From Catenuloplanes niger (GTDB lineage Bacteria > Actinomycetota > Actinomycetes > Mycobacteriales > Micromonosporaceae): DNA of 64,000 bases. Shown piece by piece: positions 33,179 to 39,120 of this stretch. The position numbers and the translations under genes are program-made. Position 1 is the first letter of the stretch. Every line of letters starts with the position of its first letter. The stretch spans positions 248,001 to 312,000 of the forward strand of contig NZ_JAVDYC010000001.1 of the NCBI RefSeq assembly GCF_031458255.1, written 5' to 3'. The notes beneath the pieces were generated by a model. The model saw only the letters and a program-made list of their open reading frames with translations, did not search any database and was not told the DNA's origin.

Positions 33179-35284
33179 TCAGGCGATCGGCGACAACGTC
33201 ACCAGTTCCTGGGTGCAGCGGGTCAGGGCCACGTAGAGCGCGTTGTGGCCGCGGGGTTCGGCCGCGATGCGGGCCGGGTCGACCAGCACGGTGGCGTCGA
33301 ACTCGAGGCCCTTGGACTGGGTGGCGGTCAGCACGGGGGTGTCGTGGACCGCCGCGGTCAGCGCGGCGATCAGGGCGGTGGGGGCGATCACGCCGACGGT
33401 GCCGCCGGTCCAGCGGTGCCGGAGCGTGGCGACCGCCTCGGCCGCGGCGGCCGGCAACCGGTCCGCGGTGGTCTCGACGGTCCGCGGGGCGATGCCGGAC
33501 GAGCGGACGGCGCGGGGCGGCGCGTTGCGGCTGCCGGCGGCGCGCAGTACCGGCGTGGTCAGCTCCATCACCTCGCGTGGGGTGCGGTAGCAGATGGTCA
33601 GCTCCGCGGCGGTCCACCGGTCGCCGAGCGTGGACCGCACCGCCTCCGCCCAGCCGGTGTGCCGGTGCGCGGCCTCGGCCTGGTCGATGTCGCCGACCGC
33701 GGTGATCGACCGGGACGGGCAGCGGCGCAGCACCATGTGCCACTGCATCTCGGACAGCTCCTGCGCCTCGTCGATCACGACGTGACCGTAGACCCAGCCG
33801 CGCTGCCGCCGGGCCCGCTCGGCGACGGACCCGGCGGCCGGTGCCGGGCCGTCGAGGTCACCGAGCAGGTCCGCGACCGCGTCGAGCAGCGGGACGTCGC
33901 TCGGCGCCCACCCGTCCGCGCCGGCGTCCGCCGCGACCAGCCCGGCCTCCTCCGGTGTCAGGTCCGGTGCGTACCGGGCCAGCAGTGCGGCGTCGGTCAG
34001 CAGGTTCCGCAGCACGGTCCGCGGGTCCCGGGCCGGCCACACGCTGTCGACGAAACGGGCGATCGTGGCGTCGGCGGCGATCCGGTCCCGCAGTTCGTCG
34101 ATCTCCTCGTCGGACATCAGGCCGTCGACGTCGGAACCGGACCGGCCGTCGTCGCCGGGCTCGGGACGGAACCGGGCGAGGATGTCCTCGTAGCCCTCGT
34201 CCATCCGGTCCAGCAGCGCGGCCCGCTGCTCGGCCACGGCCTCGGCCAGGACGTGGTGCAGGTGCTCGGCGAAGACGGCCCGGGCCCGGTGGTGGGAGCG
34301 GCCCTGGACCGCGGAGGCGAGCAGGTGCCCGACCGCGTCCGCCCCGATCAGGTGGAACTCGCCGTCCCAGCGCAGTTTCAGCTCGCGCGCCCGCGGCAGC
34401 AGCGACCGTACGTACCGCTCCAGCGCGCCCTGCCAGAGCGCCCGGCCCTTGAGCTCGGCGATCCGCCGCGACTCGGCGCGGGTCACGGCCACGCCGGGGA
34501 GCAGCGTGTCGCAGGTCGCGGCGACGACCGCGGTCTCGCCGAGCGCGGGCAGCACCTGCGCGATGTAGTCCAGGAACCGCGTCGACGGGCCGAGCACCAG
34601 CACCGCCCGCTCGGCCATCTGCCGGTACGTGAACAGCAGGTACGCCACCCGGTGCAGCGCGACCACGGTCTTGCCGGTGCCGGGTCCGCCCTGGACGATC
34701 AGCGGCCCGGTCGCCTCGGCCCGGATGACGGCGTCCTGTTCGCGCTGCAACGTGGCGATCGCGGTCGACATCCGGCCGGTCCGTCGCTCGTTCAGTGCCG
34801 CCAGCAGCGCGCCCTCGCCGACCAGCGCACCGCCGTCGGCACCGTCCAGCGGCTCGTCGTCGACCCCGGCCACGACCGGCCCGTCCGTGCGGACGTGCCG
34901 GCGCCGGGCCTGGCCCTGCGGGTCGACCGGGGTCGCGGTGTAGAACGGCCGCGCGGCCGGTGCCCGCCAGTCGACCACGATCGGGTCGGCGGTCTCGTCG
35001 TCGTCGCGGATCCCGGTCCGGCCGATGTGCCGCACCGTGCCGTCCACGCCGTCGAGCCGGCCGAAGATCAGCCCGCCCGACGCCCGGCGCAGTTCCTCGA
35101 GTTGCGCCCGCAGGCCGCGCTGCCGGGCCCGGCCGGTGGCGTCCTCGGCCGGCACCGCCAGTTCCGCCGTCAGGCGCGCCGCGAGCCGGTCCCGCCGTGC
35201 GACCGCGGCGTCCAGGAACCGCTGTTCCTCCGCGATCGCGAGTGCGGCGCCGTCGCGAGTGGATTCCGAATCAGTGCTGAGCAT
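33179..35284 (-). CDS. helD: HelD-type RNA polymerase recycling helicase
   Basis: A 701-residue superfamily 1 UvrD/Rep-like ATPase of the HelD group, which pries stalled or rifampicin-bound RNA polymerase off DNA. The N-terminal coiled-coil is about residues 10-75 (EEQRFLDAAVARRDRLAARL), followed by IRDDDETADPIVVDWRAPAARPFY, the Q-motif IATLQREQ and the Walker A GGPGTGKT at about 199-206. Later motifs include VIDEAQELSEMQW, GDIDQAEA, YRTPREVMEL and YVALTRC. ATG 35284 follows GGGAGG. HelD relatives in mycobacteria and Streptomyces confer rifampicin tolerance; that role here is inference. Confidence 0.9.
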   Translation of the reverse strand: MLSTDSESTRDGAALAIAEEQRFLDAAVARRDRLAARLTAELAVPAEDATGRARQRGLRAQLEELRRASGGLIFGRLDGVDGTVRHIGRTGIRDDDETADPIVVDWRAPAARPFYTATPVDPQGQARRRHVRTDGPVVAGVDDEPLDGADGGALVGEGALLAALNERRTGRMSTAIATLQREQDAVIRAEATGPLIVQGGPGTGKTVVALHRVAYLLFTYRQMAERAVLVLGPSTRFLDYIAQVLPALGETAVVAATCDTLLPGVAVTRAESRRIAELKGRALWQGALERYVRSLLPRARELKLRWDGEFHLIGADAVGHLLASAVQGRSHHRARAVFAEHLHHVLAEAVAEQRAALLDRMDEGYEDILARFRPEPGDDGRSGSDVDGLMSDEEIDELRDRIAADATIARFVDSVWPARDPRTVLRNLLTDAALLARYAPDLTPEEAGLVAADAGADGWAPSDVPLLDAVADLLGDLDGPAPAAGSVAERARRQRGWVYGHVVIDEAQELSEMQWHMVLRRCPSRSITAVGDIDQAEAAHRHTGWAEAVRSTLGDRWTAAELTICYRTPREVMELTTPVLRAAGSRNAPPRAVRSSGIAPRTVETTADRLPAAAAEAVATLRHRWTGGTVGVIAPTALIAALTAAVHDTPVLTATQSKGLEFDATVLVDPARIAAEPRGHNALYVALTRCTQELVTLSPIA

Positions 35285-35497
35285 ACGAACCTCCCGGCTG
35301 TCCCGGCCGGGAATGCTAACGACACACAACCGCCCTGATCAGCGCCGGGAGACAGTAATCTCACCCGCTTGCGAAATGCGTTCCGATCGCATCTGTCGAA
35401 TGCGAACACCGCCTTGACCGACGGCGCAAAGTGTGATCTCCAAAGCGGAATCGCCATTCAAGGATATGATGTGCGTCGATGTTTCGAGGAGGATTTC

Positions 35498-36403
35498 GTG
35501 CCGGCACACGACGCTCCACCCCGGCGACGGGTGATCATCGATACCGACGCCAAGAACGAGGCGGATGATCAGTTCGCCGTCGTGCATGCGCTGCTCTCGC
35601 CCAGTGTGGACGTGCGCGGCGTGATCGCGGCGCACTTCGGCATCCGGCCGGGCCGGGGCGAGCGGGGCATGCCGGACAGCCGGGCCGAGATCGATCTGCT
35701 GCTCGGCCACCTCGGCATGCGCGACACCGTCCGGGCCGAGAACGGTGCCGCGTTCGCGATGCCGGACGCGCACACCCCGGTCCCGTCGGCCGGCGCCGAC
35801 CTGATCGTCGCGGAGGCGATGCGCGCGGACGGCCCGCTGTACGCCGCGTTCCTCGGGCCGCTCACCGACATGGCCTCGGCACTGCTCATCGAGCCGCGCA
35901 TCGCCGAGCGCGACCTCGTCGTGGTCTGGATCGGCGGCCCCGGCTACGACGGGCTCGACCCGTCCCCCGGCCGGCCGGAGTTCAACCTCGCCAACGACGT
36001 CGTCGCGGCGAACGTGGTGTTCCGTTCCGCCCTCACGGTCTGGCAGATCCCCCGGTCGGTCTTCACACAGACCGCCGTCGGATACGCGGAACTGGAGGAT
36101 CGGGTCGCCCCCTGCGGTCCGCTCGGCCGCTACCTCGTCGACCAGCTCGTCGAGTGGAACGCCGCACACGCCGACACGGTCATGGAGTACCGCTGCCTCG
36201 GCGACTCCCCCGCCGTGGCGGTCATCATCAACCCCACCGCCGGGCAGTACGAATCCCGCCCCGCGTACGGCTTCACCTGGGACGCCGAGTACGACACCCG
36301 CACCGCGTACCGCCCGATCCGGGTCTACCGCACCATCGACGCCCGGTTCATGTTCGAGGACCTGTTCGCCAAGCTGCGCCGGGCCGCCCGCGACGGCACG
36401 TGA
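35498..36403 (+). CDS. Inosine-uridine nucleoside hydrolase-like protein
   Basis: A 301-residue protein with the nucleoside hydrolase metal-binding start RRVIIDTDAKNEADDQFAVVHALL (two Asp pairs as DTDxxxExDD), then LGPLTDMASALL and VVWIGGP, all typical. The second conserved His/Asp region near WDAEYDTR differs from the canonical enzymes, so the substrate may not be a standard ribonucleoside. GTG 35498 is chosen because GAGGAGG lies 7-10 bases upstream; an ATG at 35369 would add 43 residues of non-conserved sequence. The upstream 213 bases are less GC-rich and contain a TATGAT box at 35465, a possible -10. Confidence 0.8.
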   Translation: MPAHDAPPRRRVIIDTDAKNEADDQFAVVHALLSPSVDVRGVIAAHFGIRPGRGERGMPDSRAEIDLLLGHLGMRDTVRAENGAAFAMPDAHTPVPSAGADLIVAEAMRADGPLYAAFLGPLTDMASALLIEPRIAERDLVVVWIGGPGYDGLDPSPGRPEFNLANDVVAANVVFRSALTVWQIPRSVFTQTAVGYAELEDRVAPCGPLGRYLVDQLVEWNAAHADTVMEYRCLGDSPAVAVIINPTAGQYESRPAYGFTWDAEYDTRTAYRPIRVYRTIDARFMFEDLFAKLRRAARDGT

Positions 36404-36416
36404 TCCCGCGGCCCGG

Positions 36417-37310
36417 TCAGATCAGTCGCAGGTGACGGGTGGCGACGGTGACGGTGACGCGCTGGCCCCAGGTCAGCTGGAGCGCGTCGGTCTCGAGGCC
36501 GTCGGCGAACGCGACCAGGCGCTCGGACTCGCTCGCCAGTTCCAGGGACTCGCCGGGGTGCAGCAGGCCGGCGGACTCGGTGACGCCGGTGGACGGGGAC
36601 GGCCAGGCCTCCCGGACGTACCAGCAGAGGTGCGGGTCGGCCGGGCCGGGCATCGGCGGCGCGGTGGCCCGCTCACGGGCGATCGAGGCGCACCAGCCGG
36701 TCGCGCCGGTGCCGGTGCCGACGATCACGCCGGACGAGGACTGCCGTTCGCGGTGCCCGCCGGGCGTGGTGAGGACGTAGCGGGCGGACTGGTGGCCGGG
36801 CTGCCCGAGGTAGATCTCGTTGAGGCCGTGCAGTTCCTGACCGTCGTCGAGGCGTGCGGTGACCATGGTCCGGCGCGCGCCGCCACCGGCGTCGCGGTGC
36901 AGGCCGGCGAGCAGGCCGGGGACCGCGGCGGGGGCGTGCCGGACCAGGACGCCGGCGTTGCGGCCGGGTTCCGGGTCGACGCCGATGACGGGCTGGCCGT
37001 CGAGGTACTTCGCCACGTTCGCGACCAGGCCGTCCGGCCCGACCGCGATGATCACGTCTTCCGGGGCGAACAGGAAGCGGGGCAGGTCGGCGCGCTCCAC
37101 GTGGCCGCGCCGCCAGTCGGCCGGGACGCCGGCGCTGACCGCGGTGAGGGCCGCGGTCAGCGCGGCGTGGCGGGCGGTGACGTCGTCGAGCGTGCGGCCG
37201 CGTTCACGGAGGAAGAACGCGGCCGCGCCGCGGGTGCCGTGCCGGGCGAGCAGCTCGTCGAGCTCGCTGCGCCGCGACACGATCACCACCCGGGGGTTGA
37301 GCGTGCTCAC
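36417..37310 (-). CDS. NAD-kinase-like protein
   Basis: A 297-residue protein related to ATP-NAD kinases. In place of the catalytic GGDGT it reads VGPDGLVANV (about residues 90-99), the nucleotide-binding GTGTGATGWCAS matches the conserved GSTG(A/G) loop region, and LNEIYLG corresponds to the NE motif. The C-terminal beta-rich portion is family-like. The altered GGDG motif leaves catalysis uncertain; it could be a genuine but divergent kinase or a nucleotide-binding regulator. Its GTG overlaps the stop of the SPFH gene (GTGA), so both are made together under the Nudix/NrtR-like regulator's operators. Confidence 0.78.
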   Translation of the reverse strand: MSTLNPRVVIVSRRSELDELLARHGTRGAAAFFLRERGRTLDDVTARHAALTAALTAVSAGVPADWRRGHVERADLPRFLFAPEDVIIAVGPDGLVANVAKYLDGQPVIGVDPEPGRNAGVLVRHAPAAVPGLLAGLHRDAGGGARRTMVTARLDDGQELHGLNEIYLGQPGHQSARYVLTTPGGHRERQSSSGVIVGTGTGATGWCASIARERATAPPMPGPADPHLCWYVREAWPSPSTGVTESAGLLHPGESLELASESERLVAFADGLETDALQLTWGQRVTVTVATRHLRLI

Positions 37311-38329
37311 GACAGCCGCCCGAGGACCTTGCTGAGCAGGTCCGGCGTGACGGTCAGCTCGTTGATCGCGGGCAGCTGGCCGGCCAGTTCCTTGATCGCG
37401 AGCGCCTGCAGCACGCCCGGGGGCAGGTCACGGTACGCGGCCAGGCGCGCGGCCTCCGCCTCCGCCTCGGCCAGGCCGACGAGCCGGGCGCCGGCCGCGC
37501 GCGCCTCGTCCCGTACCCGTGCCGAATCCGCCTCCGCCGTTGCCTTCTGCCGCAGGCGATCCGCCTCGGCACCGCCGGCCACGCCCTGACGCTCGGCCTC
37601 GAGTTCCGCCTCGCGCCGGGTGTTCGCGCCGCGCTGCTCGACCAGCTGCTGCTCCCGCCGGGCCAGCTCGATCCTGCTCTGCAGCTCGTTCTCCGCGATC
37701 GACTGCTCCTGCTGGACCGCGTGCGCGCGCCGGGCGTACGTGGCCCGGTCCGCGTCCTGCTGCACCTGCTCGCGGGTCGGGGTCTGCAGCGCGCGTTCCA
37801 TCTCCGGCTCCGGGCGCAGCGCGACGACGCGCGCGCTGACCACGGAGACGCCGGTCTCGGTCAGCCGCGGGTCGTCCGCGAGCGCGGTCGCGACCGCGGC
37901 CCGGATCGTGGCGATGCCGGTGGTCAGCGCGTCCGCCAGCGGCACCCGGGCGAGCAGGTCGAGCGCGGGCTGCTGGGCCAGCTCGGCGAGCATGCCGGCG
38001 ACCTGGTCGAGCGGCTGACCGCGCCAGGTGCCCCGGTAGGGGTCGATGGAGAAGTCGAGGCGCGCGGCCGCCGCGGCCGGATCGCTCACCCGGTAGGTGA
38101 CCGTGGCCTGCACGGTCACGTCCGCGAAGTCCTCGGTGCGGGCGTGGAACAGCAGCGGCAGCTCGCGGTCGTCGACCGGCACCTCGGACAGCGCGGCGGT
38201 GAGCGGCCGGTACCAGAACGACAGCCCGGTGCCGGCGCGCCGGACACGGCCGCCCACGGTGTGGCTGACCCAGCTGGTCGGTGCGGAGCGCAGGTGCCGC
38301 AGGTGGAAGCGGCGTGTCACGTCGGCCAT
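37307..38329 (-). CDS. SPFH/band 7 domain protein
   Basis: A 340-residue SPFH protein. The N-terminal ~30 residues lack a membrane helix, so unlike flotillins it is probably soluble. The band 7 core runs through LLFHARTEDFADVTVQATVTYRV and VVSARVVALRPEPEMERAL, followed by a long coiled-coil (about residues 195-300) of QxxADRATYARRAH, ELARREQQLVEQ and AEADSARVRDEARAAG type, then a short globular end. Such proteins form large ring or cage assemblies. ATG 38329 follows GGAGG. It is translationally coupled to a NAD-kinase-like gene and divergent from a Nudix/NrtR-like gene across two matched palindromes. Confidence 0.85.
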   Translation of the reverse strand: MADVTRRFHLRHLRSAPTSWVSHTVGGRVRRAGTGLSFWYRPLTAALSEVPVDDRELPLLFHARTEDFADVTVQATVTYRVSDPAAAAARLDFSIDPYRGTWRGQPLDQVAGMLAELAQQPALDLLARVPLADALTTGIATIRAAVATALADDPRLTETGVSVVSARVVALRPEPEMERALQTPTREQVQQDADRATYARRAHAVQQEQSIAENELQSRIELARREQQLVEQRGANTRREAELEAERQGVAGGAEADRLRQKATAEADSARVRDEARAAGARLVGLAEAEAEAARLAAYRDLPPGVLQALAIKELAGQLPAINELTVTPDLLSKVLGRLS

Positions 38330-38349
38330 GGTGGTCCTCCCCGATGTTT

Positions 38350-38399
38350 TCGTCACCATGACGATAAACCCCGGGCGCTATTATCGTCAACATGACGAT
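38350..38399. promoter_or_regulatory. Twin operators, TCGTCA-N3-TGACGA type
   Basis: Two inverted repeats with the same half-site occupy the 62-base divergent gap: TCGTCACCATGACGA (38350-38364) and ATCGTCAACATGACGAT (38383-38399), with centres 34 bases apart. The second covers the start codon of the Nudix/NrtR-like gene, as expected of autorepression. The first lies just upstream of the SPFH-NAD-kinase-like operon. The match of arms makes a single protein the likely binder. Confidence 0.8.
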
Positions 38400-39054
38400 T
38401 ACGGTGGACCTGGTGCTGCTCACGATCCGCGACGGCGTGCTGCAGGTGCTGCTGGTCCGGCGCGGCATCCCGCCGTACCGGGGGAGGTGGGCCCTGCCCG
38501 GCGGTTTCGTGCTCGACGACGAGGATCTGGCCGACGCGGCGCTGCGCGAGCTGCGCGAGGAGACCGGGCTGGAACCGCGGCACCTGGAGCAGCTCGCCAC
38601 CTACGGCACGCCGGGCCGCGACCCGCGCGGGCGGGTGGTCACGGTCGCCTACCTGGCGCTGCTGCCCGACCTGCCGTCCCCGGTCGCGGGCAGTGACGCG
38701 GCCGGCGCGGCGTGGCGGCCGTACGACGAGGTGGCCGGCGGCGGGCTCGCGTTCGACCACGACCGGATCCTGGCCGACGGCATCGAACGGGCCCGGTCCA
38801 AGCTGGAGTACACGCCGCTGGCGACCGCGTTCTGCCCGCCGGAGTTCACGATCGCGGACCTGCGCGGCGTGTACGAGACGGTGTGGCGCACCACGATCGA
38901 CGCCCGCAACTTCCACCGCAAGGTGACCGGCGCGGAGGGCTTCGTCGAACCGACCGGCGGCACCGCCGAGCGCGACCGTGGCCGCCCGGCCCAGCTGTTC
39001 CGCCGCGGACCGGCCACGCTGCTGCACCCGCCGCTGTTGCGACCGCAACGCTAG
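38392..39054 (+). CDS. Nudix/NrtR-like regulator (Nudix domain plus C-terminal winged helix)
   Basis: A 220-residue protein. The Nudix domain is intact: GGFVLDDEDLADAALREL followed by REETGL fits GX5EX7REUXEEXGU at about residues 38-61. The C-terminal ~75 residues (PPEFTIADLRGVYETVW, then DARNFHRKVTG) match the winged-helix of NrtR-type regulators of NAD metabolism, which sense ADP-ribose-type ligands. Retention of the catalytic Nudix box means it could still hydrolyse a nucleotide substrate such as ADP-ribose. It overlaps one of two palindromes in its own promoter and faces an SPFH-NAD-kinase-like operon, so control of that pair is the natural inference. Confidence 0.85.
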   Translation: MTITVDLVLLTIRDGVLQVLLVRRGIPPYRGRWALPGGFVLDDEDLADAALRELREETGLEPRHLEQLATYGTPGRDPRGRVVTVAYLALLPDLPSPVAGSDAAGAAWRPYDEVAGGGLAFDHDRILADGIERARSKLEYTPLATAFCPPEFTIADLRGVYETVWRTTIDARNFHRKVTGAEGFVEPTGGTAERDRGRPAQLFRRGPATLLHPPLLRPQR

Positions 39055-39120
39055 GCCCTGTATCGACGTGGATGGCCGGGCTGCGGCGCGCTCCGACCCC
39101 ACGTCGATACAGGTCCTAGC
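39050..39120. repeat. 22-base inverted repeat hairpin after the Nudix gene
   Basis: A stem of two 22-base arms (39050-39071 and 39099-39120), identical except for one mismatch, encloses a 27-base loop; the arm begins GCTAGG and contains CTGTATCGACGTGG. The left arm includes the Nudix stop codon. It could act as a terminator in both directions, but it lacks a T-run, and the long perfect arms are unusual for that. Confidence 0.75.

Follow-up and report, generated by a model that had tools for sequence, protein, structure and literature searches.

A conserved NrtR-family regulator, SPFH and NAD-kinase-like gene trio in Catenuloplanes niger with paired palindromes over its predicted promoter

The DNA described here is a 64,000-nucleotide stretch of the actinobacterium Catenuloplanes niger (family Micromonosporaceae; NCBI RefSeq assembly GCF_031458255.1, contig NZ_JAVDYC010000001.1, positions 248,001 to 312,000 of the forward strand), hereafter the window, whose own numbering is used throughout. 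It carries a gene for a regulator of the NrtR family, composed of a Nudix domain and a winged helix, which is transcribed away from two genes encoding an SPFH/Band-7 protein and a protein related to the kinases of nicotinamide adenine dinucleotide (NAD). The three genes are the following:

36417..37310, minus strand: NAD-kinase-like protein, 297 residues, with GPDGLVAN in place of GGDGT, the stretch TGTGATGW and an invariant Asp93
37307..38329, minus strand: SPFH/Band-7 protein, 340 residues counted from the conserved MADV start
38392..39054, plus strand: NrtR-type regulator, open reading frame of 220 residues, Nudix domain at residues 10-128 and NrtR winged helix at 147-204

An earlier note on this DNA had described a regulator with an intact Nudix box and an NrtR-type winged helix, divergent from a translationally coupled operon whose SPFH product is soluble and whose kinase has an altered GGDG motif, with two palindromes of the same half-site in the intergenic gap, one of them on the start codon of the regulator. 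Each of these elements is upheld by the data given below. The GTG start of the kinase-like gene overlaps the SPFH stop codon by 4 base pairs (bp) on the minus strand and the regulator lies on the plus strand. The SPFH start had to be moved: the open frame spans 37307-38359 on the minus strand (Band_7 8.5e-15), and the true start is most likely the ATG at 38329 (MADVTRR), because the MAD start is common to the relatives and a good ribosome site, GGGGAGGA, lies directly upstream of it.

The regulator matches the Pfam families NUDIX (1.4e-22) and NrtR_WHD (1.8e-14), and its closest solved structures are SoNrtR of Shewanella (3gz5, 1.9e-33, both domains covered) and AraR of Bacteroides (PDB 5bs6, 1.2e-28); against the NCBIfam model of the ADP-ribose-responsive repressor it scores 131 bits, the cut-off being 400 bits. 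The Nudix box, evaluated with the pattern GX5EX7REUXEEXGU, is complete (G38-x5-E44-x7-R52E53L54-x-E56E57-x-G59L60), as it is in all 86 actinobacterial cognate regulators (75 divergent, 3 + 8 relocated). Arg24 is invariant in 15 of 15 aligned relatives and would be the counterpart of SoNrtR Arg41 and AraR Arg34, both ligand contacts (PMC4666351, in excerpt), provided that the chains in the structures carry three extra residues. The ligands of the family include ADP-ribose for SoNrtR and for an NrtR of Synechocystis, NAD for NdnR of Corynebacterium glutamicum and L-arabinose for AraR (PMC4666351, in excerpt), and MsNrtR of Mycolicibacterium smegmatis is described as an autorepressor devoid of hydrolase activity which is released from DNA by ADP-ribose (PMC6800001, in excerpt). 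By analogy with these proteins, the ligand of the present regulator is likely to be derived from NAD.

In the SPFH protein the peak 19-residue hydropathy is 1.25, without a strongly hydrophobic segment, therefore no membrane segment is expected. The single-chain model (predicted local distance difference test, pLDDT, 82.7; predicted template-modelling score 0.49) shows an SPFH domain followed by one long helix at residues 175-299. Its Foldseek matches include HflK (1.4e-12) and the major vault protein (1.6e-9), with modest template-modelling (TM) scores of about 0.4, as well as erlin, flotillin, stomatin and QmcA, and by analogy the protein may form a ring or cage. The junction with the kinase-like gene is a 4-nucleotide overlap in 50 of 79 loci and lies within 30 nucleotides in 72 of the 79; the two products are rather probably physically together.

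For the kinase-like protein no Pfam NAD-kinase match was obtained and the NCBIfam NAD-kinase matches are weak (E 0.006 or worse). A profile of 10 relatives, however, reached human NADK2 at 2.5e-14, with the bacterial NAD kinases behind (4e-7 and weaker), and the predicted model (pLDDT 93) has NADK2 as its top Foldseek match (7r4m, 1.3e-17, TM 0.74), bacterial NAD kinases being matched too; the model points to an NAD-kinase fold. The GGDGT motif itself is absent. In 47 of 47 alignment rows its place is occupied by GxDGLVAN, invariant except for x (G91 and D93 to N98), where x is Q or P in the rows shown; GQDGLVAN is found in most of the relatives shown and GPDGLVAN here. Since the motif, loop Asp included, is also kept in 7 of 7 non-actinobacterial relatives, the alteration is real and family-wide. 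Set against eight ordinary NAD kinases from related genomes, the proteins of this family stand out by a signature made up of GxDGLVAN, KYxxGQPxxG, SSG...TG-x-G, VRE-x-P and a DG(I/L/V/M)E-type motif. In Pseudarthrobacter the intact gene is followed, about 2.5 kb downstream, by an additional incomplete kinase-like segment (L062:11349-11708), which shares 55% identity with residues 177-297.

A profile scan for the kinase-like gene over 84,980 species genomes detected at least 479 relatives among at least 589 pattern matches, of which the best 80 loci were used. These span Micromonosporaceae, Glycomyces, Geodermatophilaceae, Arthrobacter and its relatives, Nocardioides, Kribbella, Mycolicibacterium, Saccharopolyspora, Streptomyces and Acidimicrobiia bins. 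In 79 of these 80 loci the SPFH gene lies upstream of the kinase-like gene and in the same direction, and 70 have the divergent regulator, so the three-gene arrangement, for which the earlier note had proposed a search across genomes, is conserved. A crude clustering of neighbours, with open reading frames picked by codon-position G+C, genus labels entered by hand and small or odd genes possibly missed, returned the trio in 42, 37 and 29 genera, the next cluster (7 genera) being an antisense frame of the kinase gene. Gene-order counts and clustering together rule out that the three genes are neighbours by chance.

The relatives search found the kinase-like gene in 20 of 61 genomes (own genome included); a family survey found it in 119 of 300 genomes, and a sampling across the phylum in 13 of 396, one copy being partial. 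The surveys of 300 and 396 genomes scored the best 6 or 8 candidates per genome and their counts may be low. All five genomes of the own genus keep the gene with its promoter. The gene is therefore common but optional. In a plasmid collection a relative was present in 57 of 72,556 records, 42 of them Rhizobium, some records being chromosome-sized, and none was found in phage records or viral contigs. Eight non-actinobacterial regions were opened. The same divergent order of NUDIX, SPFH and kinase-like genes is annotated in Rhizobium (L169), Moraxella (L172), Methylomonas (L173) and Providencia (L174), and tblastn gave the same layout in the unannotated Cupriavidus region (L168). Roseomonas (L167) has the SPFH and kinase-like genes, but tblastn detected no regulator and no palindrome was evident; in Treponema (L171) the same pair lacks an adjacent regulator. 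On the uncultured plasmid pAST2 (L175) the kinase-like gene is accompanied by an annotated gene of only about 200 residues in the SPFH position and no NUDIX gene is annotated, as no adjacent regulator is in Kitasatospora (L170). In L121, from a distant member of the phylum, a regulator segment, the SPFH gene and a kinase-like segment all run in one direction. E. coli gave no match to two gammaproteobacterial copies at megablast sensitivity. On pAST2 and on the Moraxella plasmid the kinase-like gene was observed beside tetR/tet(H).

With the SPFH start at 38329, the 62-bp gap between the divergent genes holds both palindromes, inside or at its edges, and neither overlaps the SPFH gene. The features of this gap are:

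38381..38401, no strand: operator A, regulator-proximal, TTATCGTCAACATGACGATTA, overlapping the regulator ATG at 38392, its inner half being the SPFH -35 (minus strand)
38347..38367, no strand: operator B, SPFH-proximal, TTTTCGTCACCATGACGATAA, 34 bp from operator A, its first half being the SPFH -10 (minus strand)
38385..38390, minus strand: predicted -35 of the SPFH operon promoter, TTGACG
38361..38366, minus strand: predicted -10 of the SPFH operon promoter, TATCGT, 18 bp from the -35
38379..38384, plus strand: possible regulator -10, TATTAT, seen by eye and without a -35 at normal spacing; as a -10 it would start the mRNA at about the ATG

Both palindromes are one mismatch away from TTATCGTCA-N3-TGACGATAA. 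In the own genome (9.74 Mb) there is one further place at up to 3 mismatches (exactly 3) and none for the reversed control pattern; at this stringency the regulator appears to control this unit only. The further site precedes a paralogous NrtR (L176:6164-6924, genome position 3512163 onwards), 58% identical to the regulator, which faces a molybdopterin oxidoreductase (Oxidored_molyb) gene and misses the strict Nudix box pattern; its own site reads TTACTGTCA-N3-TGACAATAA, and a similar site precedes a relative of this paralogue in another genome (G003, L161).

Conservation of the site word TCGTCA-N3-TGACGA, also raised by the earlier note, was assessed upstream of the SPFH gene in 108 loci, which include genomes reached twice (L011/L044 and, by identical gaps, L008/L042, L012/L059, L017/L077 and L019/L106); L092, with 341 bases upstream and no SPFH match, was dropped. 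A site at up to 3 mismatches is present in 87 of 87 loci with an adjacent regulator and a second one (up to 4) in 86 of the 87, while in 2160 dinucleotide shuffles of the 108 upstream regions 4 mismatches were reached once and 3 never. The two sites are 33-34 bp apart in 73 of the 87 loci and 44-45 bp apart in 9. Among 79 unique promoters with the 33-34 bp spacing (82 before removal of redundancy), operator A has TTGACG as its inner half in 77, and TATCGT lies within the first half of operator B in all 79, at a distance of 18 bp in 65 and 17 bp in 14; the operators thus contain the -35 and the -10. These promoter columns come from loci preselected at up to 3 and up to 4 mismatches and 33-34 bp, which partly selects low variation but does not force the constancy of TATCGT. 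In 11 loci with the 44-45 bp spacing a search for any TAnnnT 16-19 bp from the -35 found a separate hexamer at 17-18 bp, operator B being one helical turn further away. One reading of this pattern is that the two repressor dimers have to lie on one side of the helix; the pattern is as expected if the bound dimers touch. Across 41 genomes the exact word TTGACG-N18-TATCGTC was matched 13 times; by position 12 of these matches belong to the SPFH promoter and one lies elsewhere (G041). The reversed control has one match in the 41, in the own genome. Genome scan, shuffles and promoter-word search, with their controls, rule out palindromes arising by chance, and it is very probable on this comparative evidence that an NrtR-type repressor acts through the two sites. 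By eye, apparent lineage-own paired palindromes near TTGAC-type -35 boxes were noted in the gaps upstream of SPFH in L168, L169 and L171-L174, for example AAGTTGTACAGTACAACTT in Cupriavidus and AAAGTAGTA...CTACTTT in Treponema.

Loci lacking the adjacent regulator provide a second line of comparison. Of 21 such loci, 11 keep both sites (8 Streptomyces-type and 3 Plantactinospora-type, labels inferred from L103, L041, L049 and similarity), and all 11 genomes encode a regulator elsewhere at 362-396 bits, which matches the level of adjacent regulators (361-394). The relocated genes examined carry upstream sites of their own: three Streptomyces-type regions have a single site each, with 3 mismatches, and two Plantactinospora-type regions each have a pair 34 bp apart. 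Sites are absent (at least 7 mismatches) from nine loci, which represent eight genomes; among these, no regulator was found in G020, distant ones (162-178 bits) in four genomes, and proteins of 314-345 bits that group with paralogues in G022, G059 and G455. The diverged sites of L072 (5 + 6 mismatches, spacing 34) were counted neither with nor without sites. A regulator of at least 357 bits, a cut set after the scores were known, is missing in 21 of 24 kinase-negative genomes (18 of 20 family negatives, the less complete G009 and G028 being left out, plus 6 from the order) and present in 7 of 7 kinase-positive ones. Sites and regulator are thus supported as mostly kept or lost together, and the independent events are fewer than the genomes, perhaps two relocations and about seven losses on a rough count.

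These observations lead to a reading that is somewhat favoured over its alternatives taken together: repression, relieved by an NAD metabolite, of an SPFH-scaffolded enzyme of NAD(H)-kinase type in an autoregulated three-gene unit. An NrtR-family repressor would keep the unit off, with two dimers on two 21-bp palindromes that share one face of the helix at a distance of about three turns; so placed, the dimers would mask both promoter boxes (-35 and -10) of the SPFH-kinase operon as well as the regulator's own start. An NAD-derived ligand, most likely ADP-ribose as judged from the family, would bind the Nudix domain and free the DNA, and in actinobacteria the intact Nudix box may hydrolyse the ligand and so reset the switch. 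The derepressed operon would then yield, by coupled translation, an SPFH ring or cage with a docked NADK2-like enzyme, which would phosphorylate NAD(H) to its phosphate, NADP(H), at the scaffold upon rising NAD turnover. The earlier proposal that the regulator controls the SPFH/kinase pair is well supported by comparative sequence (conserved order, site word, spacing, promoter overlap and co-retention); the enzymatic step is conjectural, the chances that the protein is an active NAD(H) kinase being evenly balanced.

Several results weigh against this reading. GxDGL in place of GGDGT may mean that NAD-kinase activity is lost or changed, and an ordinary GGDGT NAD kinase is encoded elsewhere in the own genome, so NADP supply alone does not require the kinase-like gene. 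The Nudix box is broken in 5 of 5 proteobacterial regulators tested and complete in 4 of 6 paralogues (labelled PAR) and in the G022 protein; a complete box is therefore neither general nor specific to the trio. Backbone nodes of the regulator tree often have low support (0.31-0.88), and the paralogue clade holding G022 and G059 (0.919) branches among the cognate groups (node 0.433), so that orthologue and paralogue are not cleanly separated. G022 also has two sites upstream of its own paralogue-like regulator (L158:6565-6629, 2 + 3 mismatches, 44 bp apart) and none at its SPFH promoter. Strict co-occurrence is slightly weakened by three kinase-negative genomes: G006, which has regulator and sites, with an assembly gap and a contig ending inside SPFH; G033, where a regulator with two sites 34 bp apart (L208:5231-5980, 5 + 2 mismatches) and no SPFH or kinase gene found alongside looks like a relic after operon loss; and G008, with an orphan regulator at 358 bits without sites. 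Finally, the loci were fetched via the kinase-like gene, and the SPFH relatives surveyed are those found beside it.

Of the alternatives, the one that fares best, while unlikely, is that the kinase-like protein is a pseudokinase which, seated on the SPFH scaffold, binds NAD(P)(H) and signals the NAD state to another process, such as membrane or proteostasis control, without catalysis. The replacement of the GGDGT loop from Actinobacteria to Treponema and the ordinary NAD kinase of the same genome agree with such a role, as does the fact that SPFH proteins elsewhere have partners (HflK/C-FtsH and QmcA-YbbJ are among the Foldseek matches). Drift, however, might have lost the catalytic-type Asp somewhere, and D93 is invariant throughout the alignment and the non-actinobacterial relatives; moreover, active lipid kinases of the superfamily have GxDGL as well.

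A local regulator commonly senses what an adjacent enzyme acts on, which favours a slightly less probable alternative, a detoxification or recycling unit whose enzyme phosphorylates the regulator's ligand or some other metabolite derived from NAD (candidates being ADP-ribose, damaged nicotinamide nucleotides and sugar nucleotides). The eight canonical NAD kinases from related genomes have a signature unlike the QSSSG...TG-x-G-x-(T)-x-W and VRE-x-PS seen here, and the gene is called "sugar kinase" in many Rhizobium records and "ATP-NAD kinase PpnK-type" in two, both being untested record labels. The range of NrtR-family ligands, from ADP-ribose and NAD to L-arabinose (PMC4666351, in excerpt), would suit this alternative, but the closest solved relative, NADK2, is an NAD kinase. 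A bolder and improbable extension pictures an ancient, portable NAD-stress compartment, in which a soluble vault-like SPFH shell would house a phosphotransferase of a distinct kind, whose substrate would derive from NAD without being NAD itself, a Nudix sensor that resets itself (in actinobacteria) would measure and destroy the signal, and the operator pair, being the promoter, would have been re-invented with a new word in each lineage while the layout was kept. A phage-defence or conflict system set off by NAD cleavage is very improbable: the patchy spread in the phylum and family surveys, the plasmid records and the prediction of Nudix transcription factors as ADP-ribose sensors in some conflict systems (PMC9503650, in excerpt) speak for it, but PADLOC matched neither SPFH nor kinase and gave a single weak match, to the Nudix protein (0.00012), phage records and viral contigs gave none, the own genus retains gene and promoter in every genome, and no extra gene recurs in the neighbour clustering.

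Regarding the surroundings, a nucleoside-hydrolase-like gene (window 35369-36403; IU_nuc_hydro 6.5e-19) is convergent with the kinase-like gene, and beyond it (33179-35329) is a HelD/HelR-like RNA-polymerase-recycling ATPase, whose best NCBIfam match (8.1e-131) is below the cut-off. Some HelR proteins are linked to rifamycin tolerance. A larger operon was considered and rejected, as these two genes had no tblastn match in the 80 scan loci and clustering added no recurrent gene; the HelD-like gene recurs in one same-genus locus only (L002), and the protein kinase gene of the window has remote matches only, in L033 and L075. After the regulator stop codon an inverted repeat with perfect 15-bp arms (CCTGTATCGACGTGG ... 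CCACGTCGATACAGG; window 39057-39113) was noticed by eye, a possible terminator or mobile-element end.

In the open-access literature searched, with the founding NrtR paper outside the search, no description of an NrtR/SPFH/NAD-kinase-like trio was found, and the suggestion that the system is undescribed stands provisionally. Its parts belong to known families; the fixed trio seems to match no described system found. Overall, the elements and the conserved unit that had been proposed are confirmed, and the interpretation is supported in part, for regulation and by comparison. The trio is of interest because it links SPFH scaffolds to NAD chemistry through a sensor from a family with known ligands, which makes both the SPFH and the NAD halves directly testable. 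It also marks out a branch of NADK2-like proteins in bacteria, with an altered phosphate loop, that occurs in Actinomycetota, Pseudomonadota and one Spirochaetota record, and provides a clear case of operators made from the promoter's own -35 and -10.

Compared with the NrtR family (SoNrtR, MsNrtR and NdnR), the regulator has the same Nudix domain and NrtR winged helix. As described for MsNrtR in M. smegmatis, it adjoins its target with a palindrome between them (PMC6800001, in excerpt), and it is likely an autorepressor. The target here is the SPFH-kinase operon, not NAD synthesis genes: among the own-genome sites at up to 3 mismatches (two here and one at the paralogous NrtR) none lies at NAD biosynthesis genes. 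The present unit differs further in its two operators in helical phase, which double as promoter boxes, in an operator word distinct from the mycobacterial GTTTTCGA-N7-TCGAAAAC, and in a complete Nudix box, reported as altered in MsNrtR (PMC6800001, in excerpt, for both). AraR of Bacteroides has the same two-domain build and is likewise an NrtR recruited to a non-NAD target; it too lacks control of NAD biosynthesis genes, its ligand being L-arabinose and its targets sugar genes (PMC4666351, in excerpt), whereas the targets here differ. The SPFH protein resembles HflK/C, stomatin, erlin, flotillin, prohibitin, QmcA and the major vault protein in having an SPFH domain followed by a long helix, and differs from them in the lack of a predicted membrane anchor and in its pairing with a kinase-like gene, by which the loci were fetched. 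The best solved relative of the kinase-like protein, by profile as well as by predicted fold, is the mitochondrial NAD kinase 2, NADK2; both proteins have a DP-containing stretch following the first motif as well as SSG-x4-TGTG-x3-W. Identity in structural alignments is about 17-19%, with GxDGL here and GGDGT there, and the kinase-like protein, in contrast to NADK2, is bacterial and paired with an SPFH protein.

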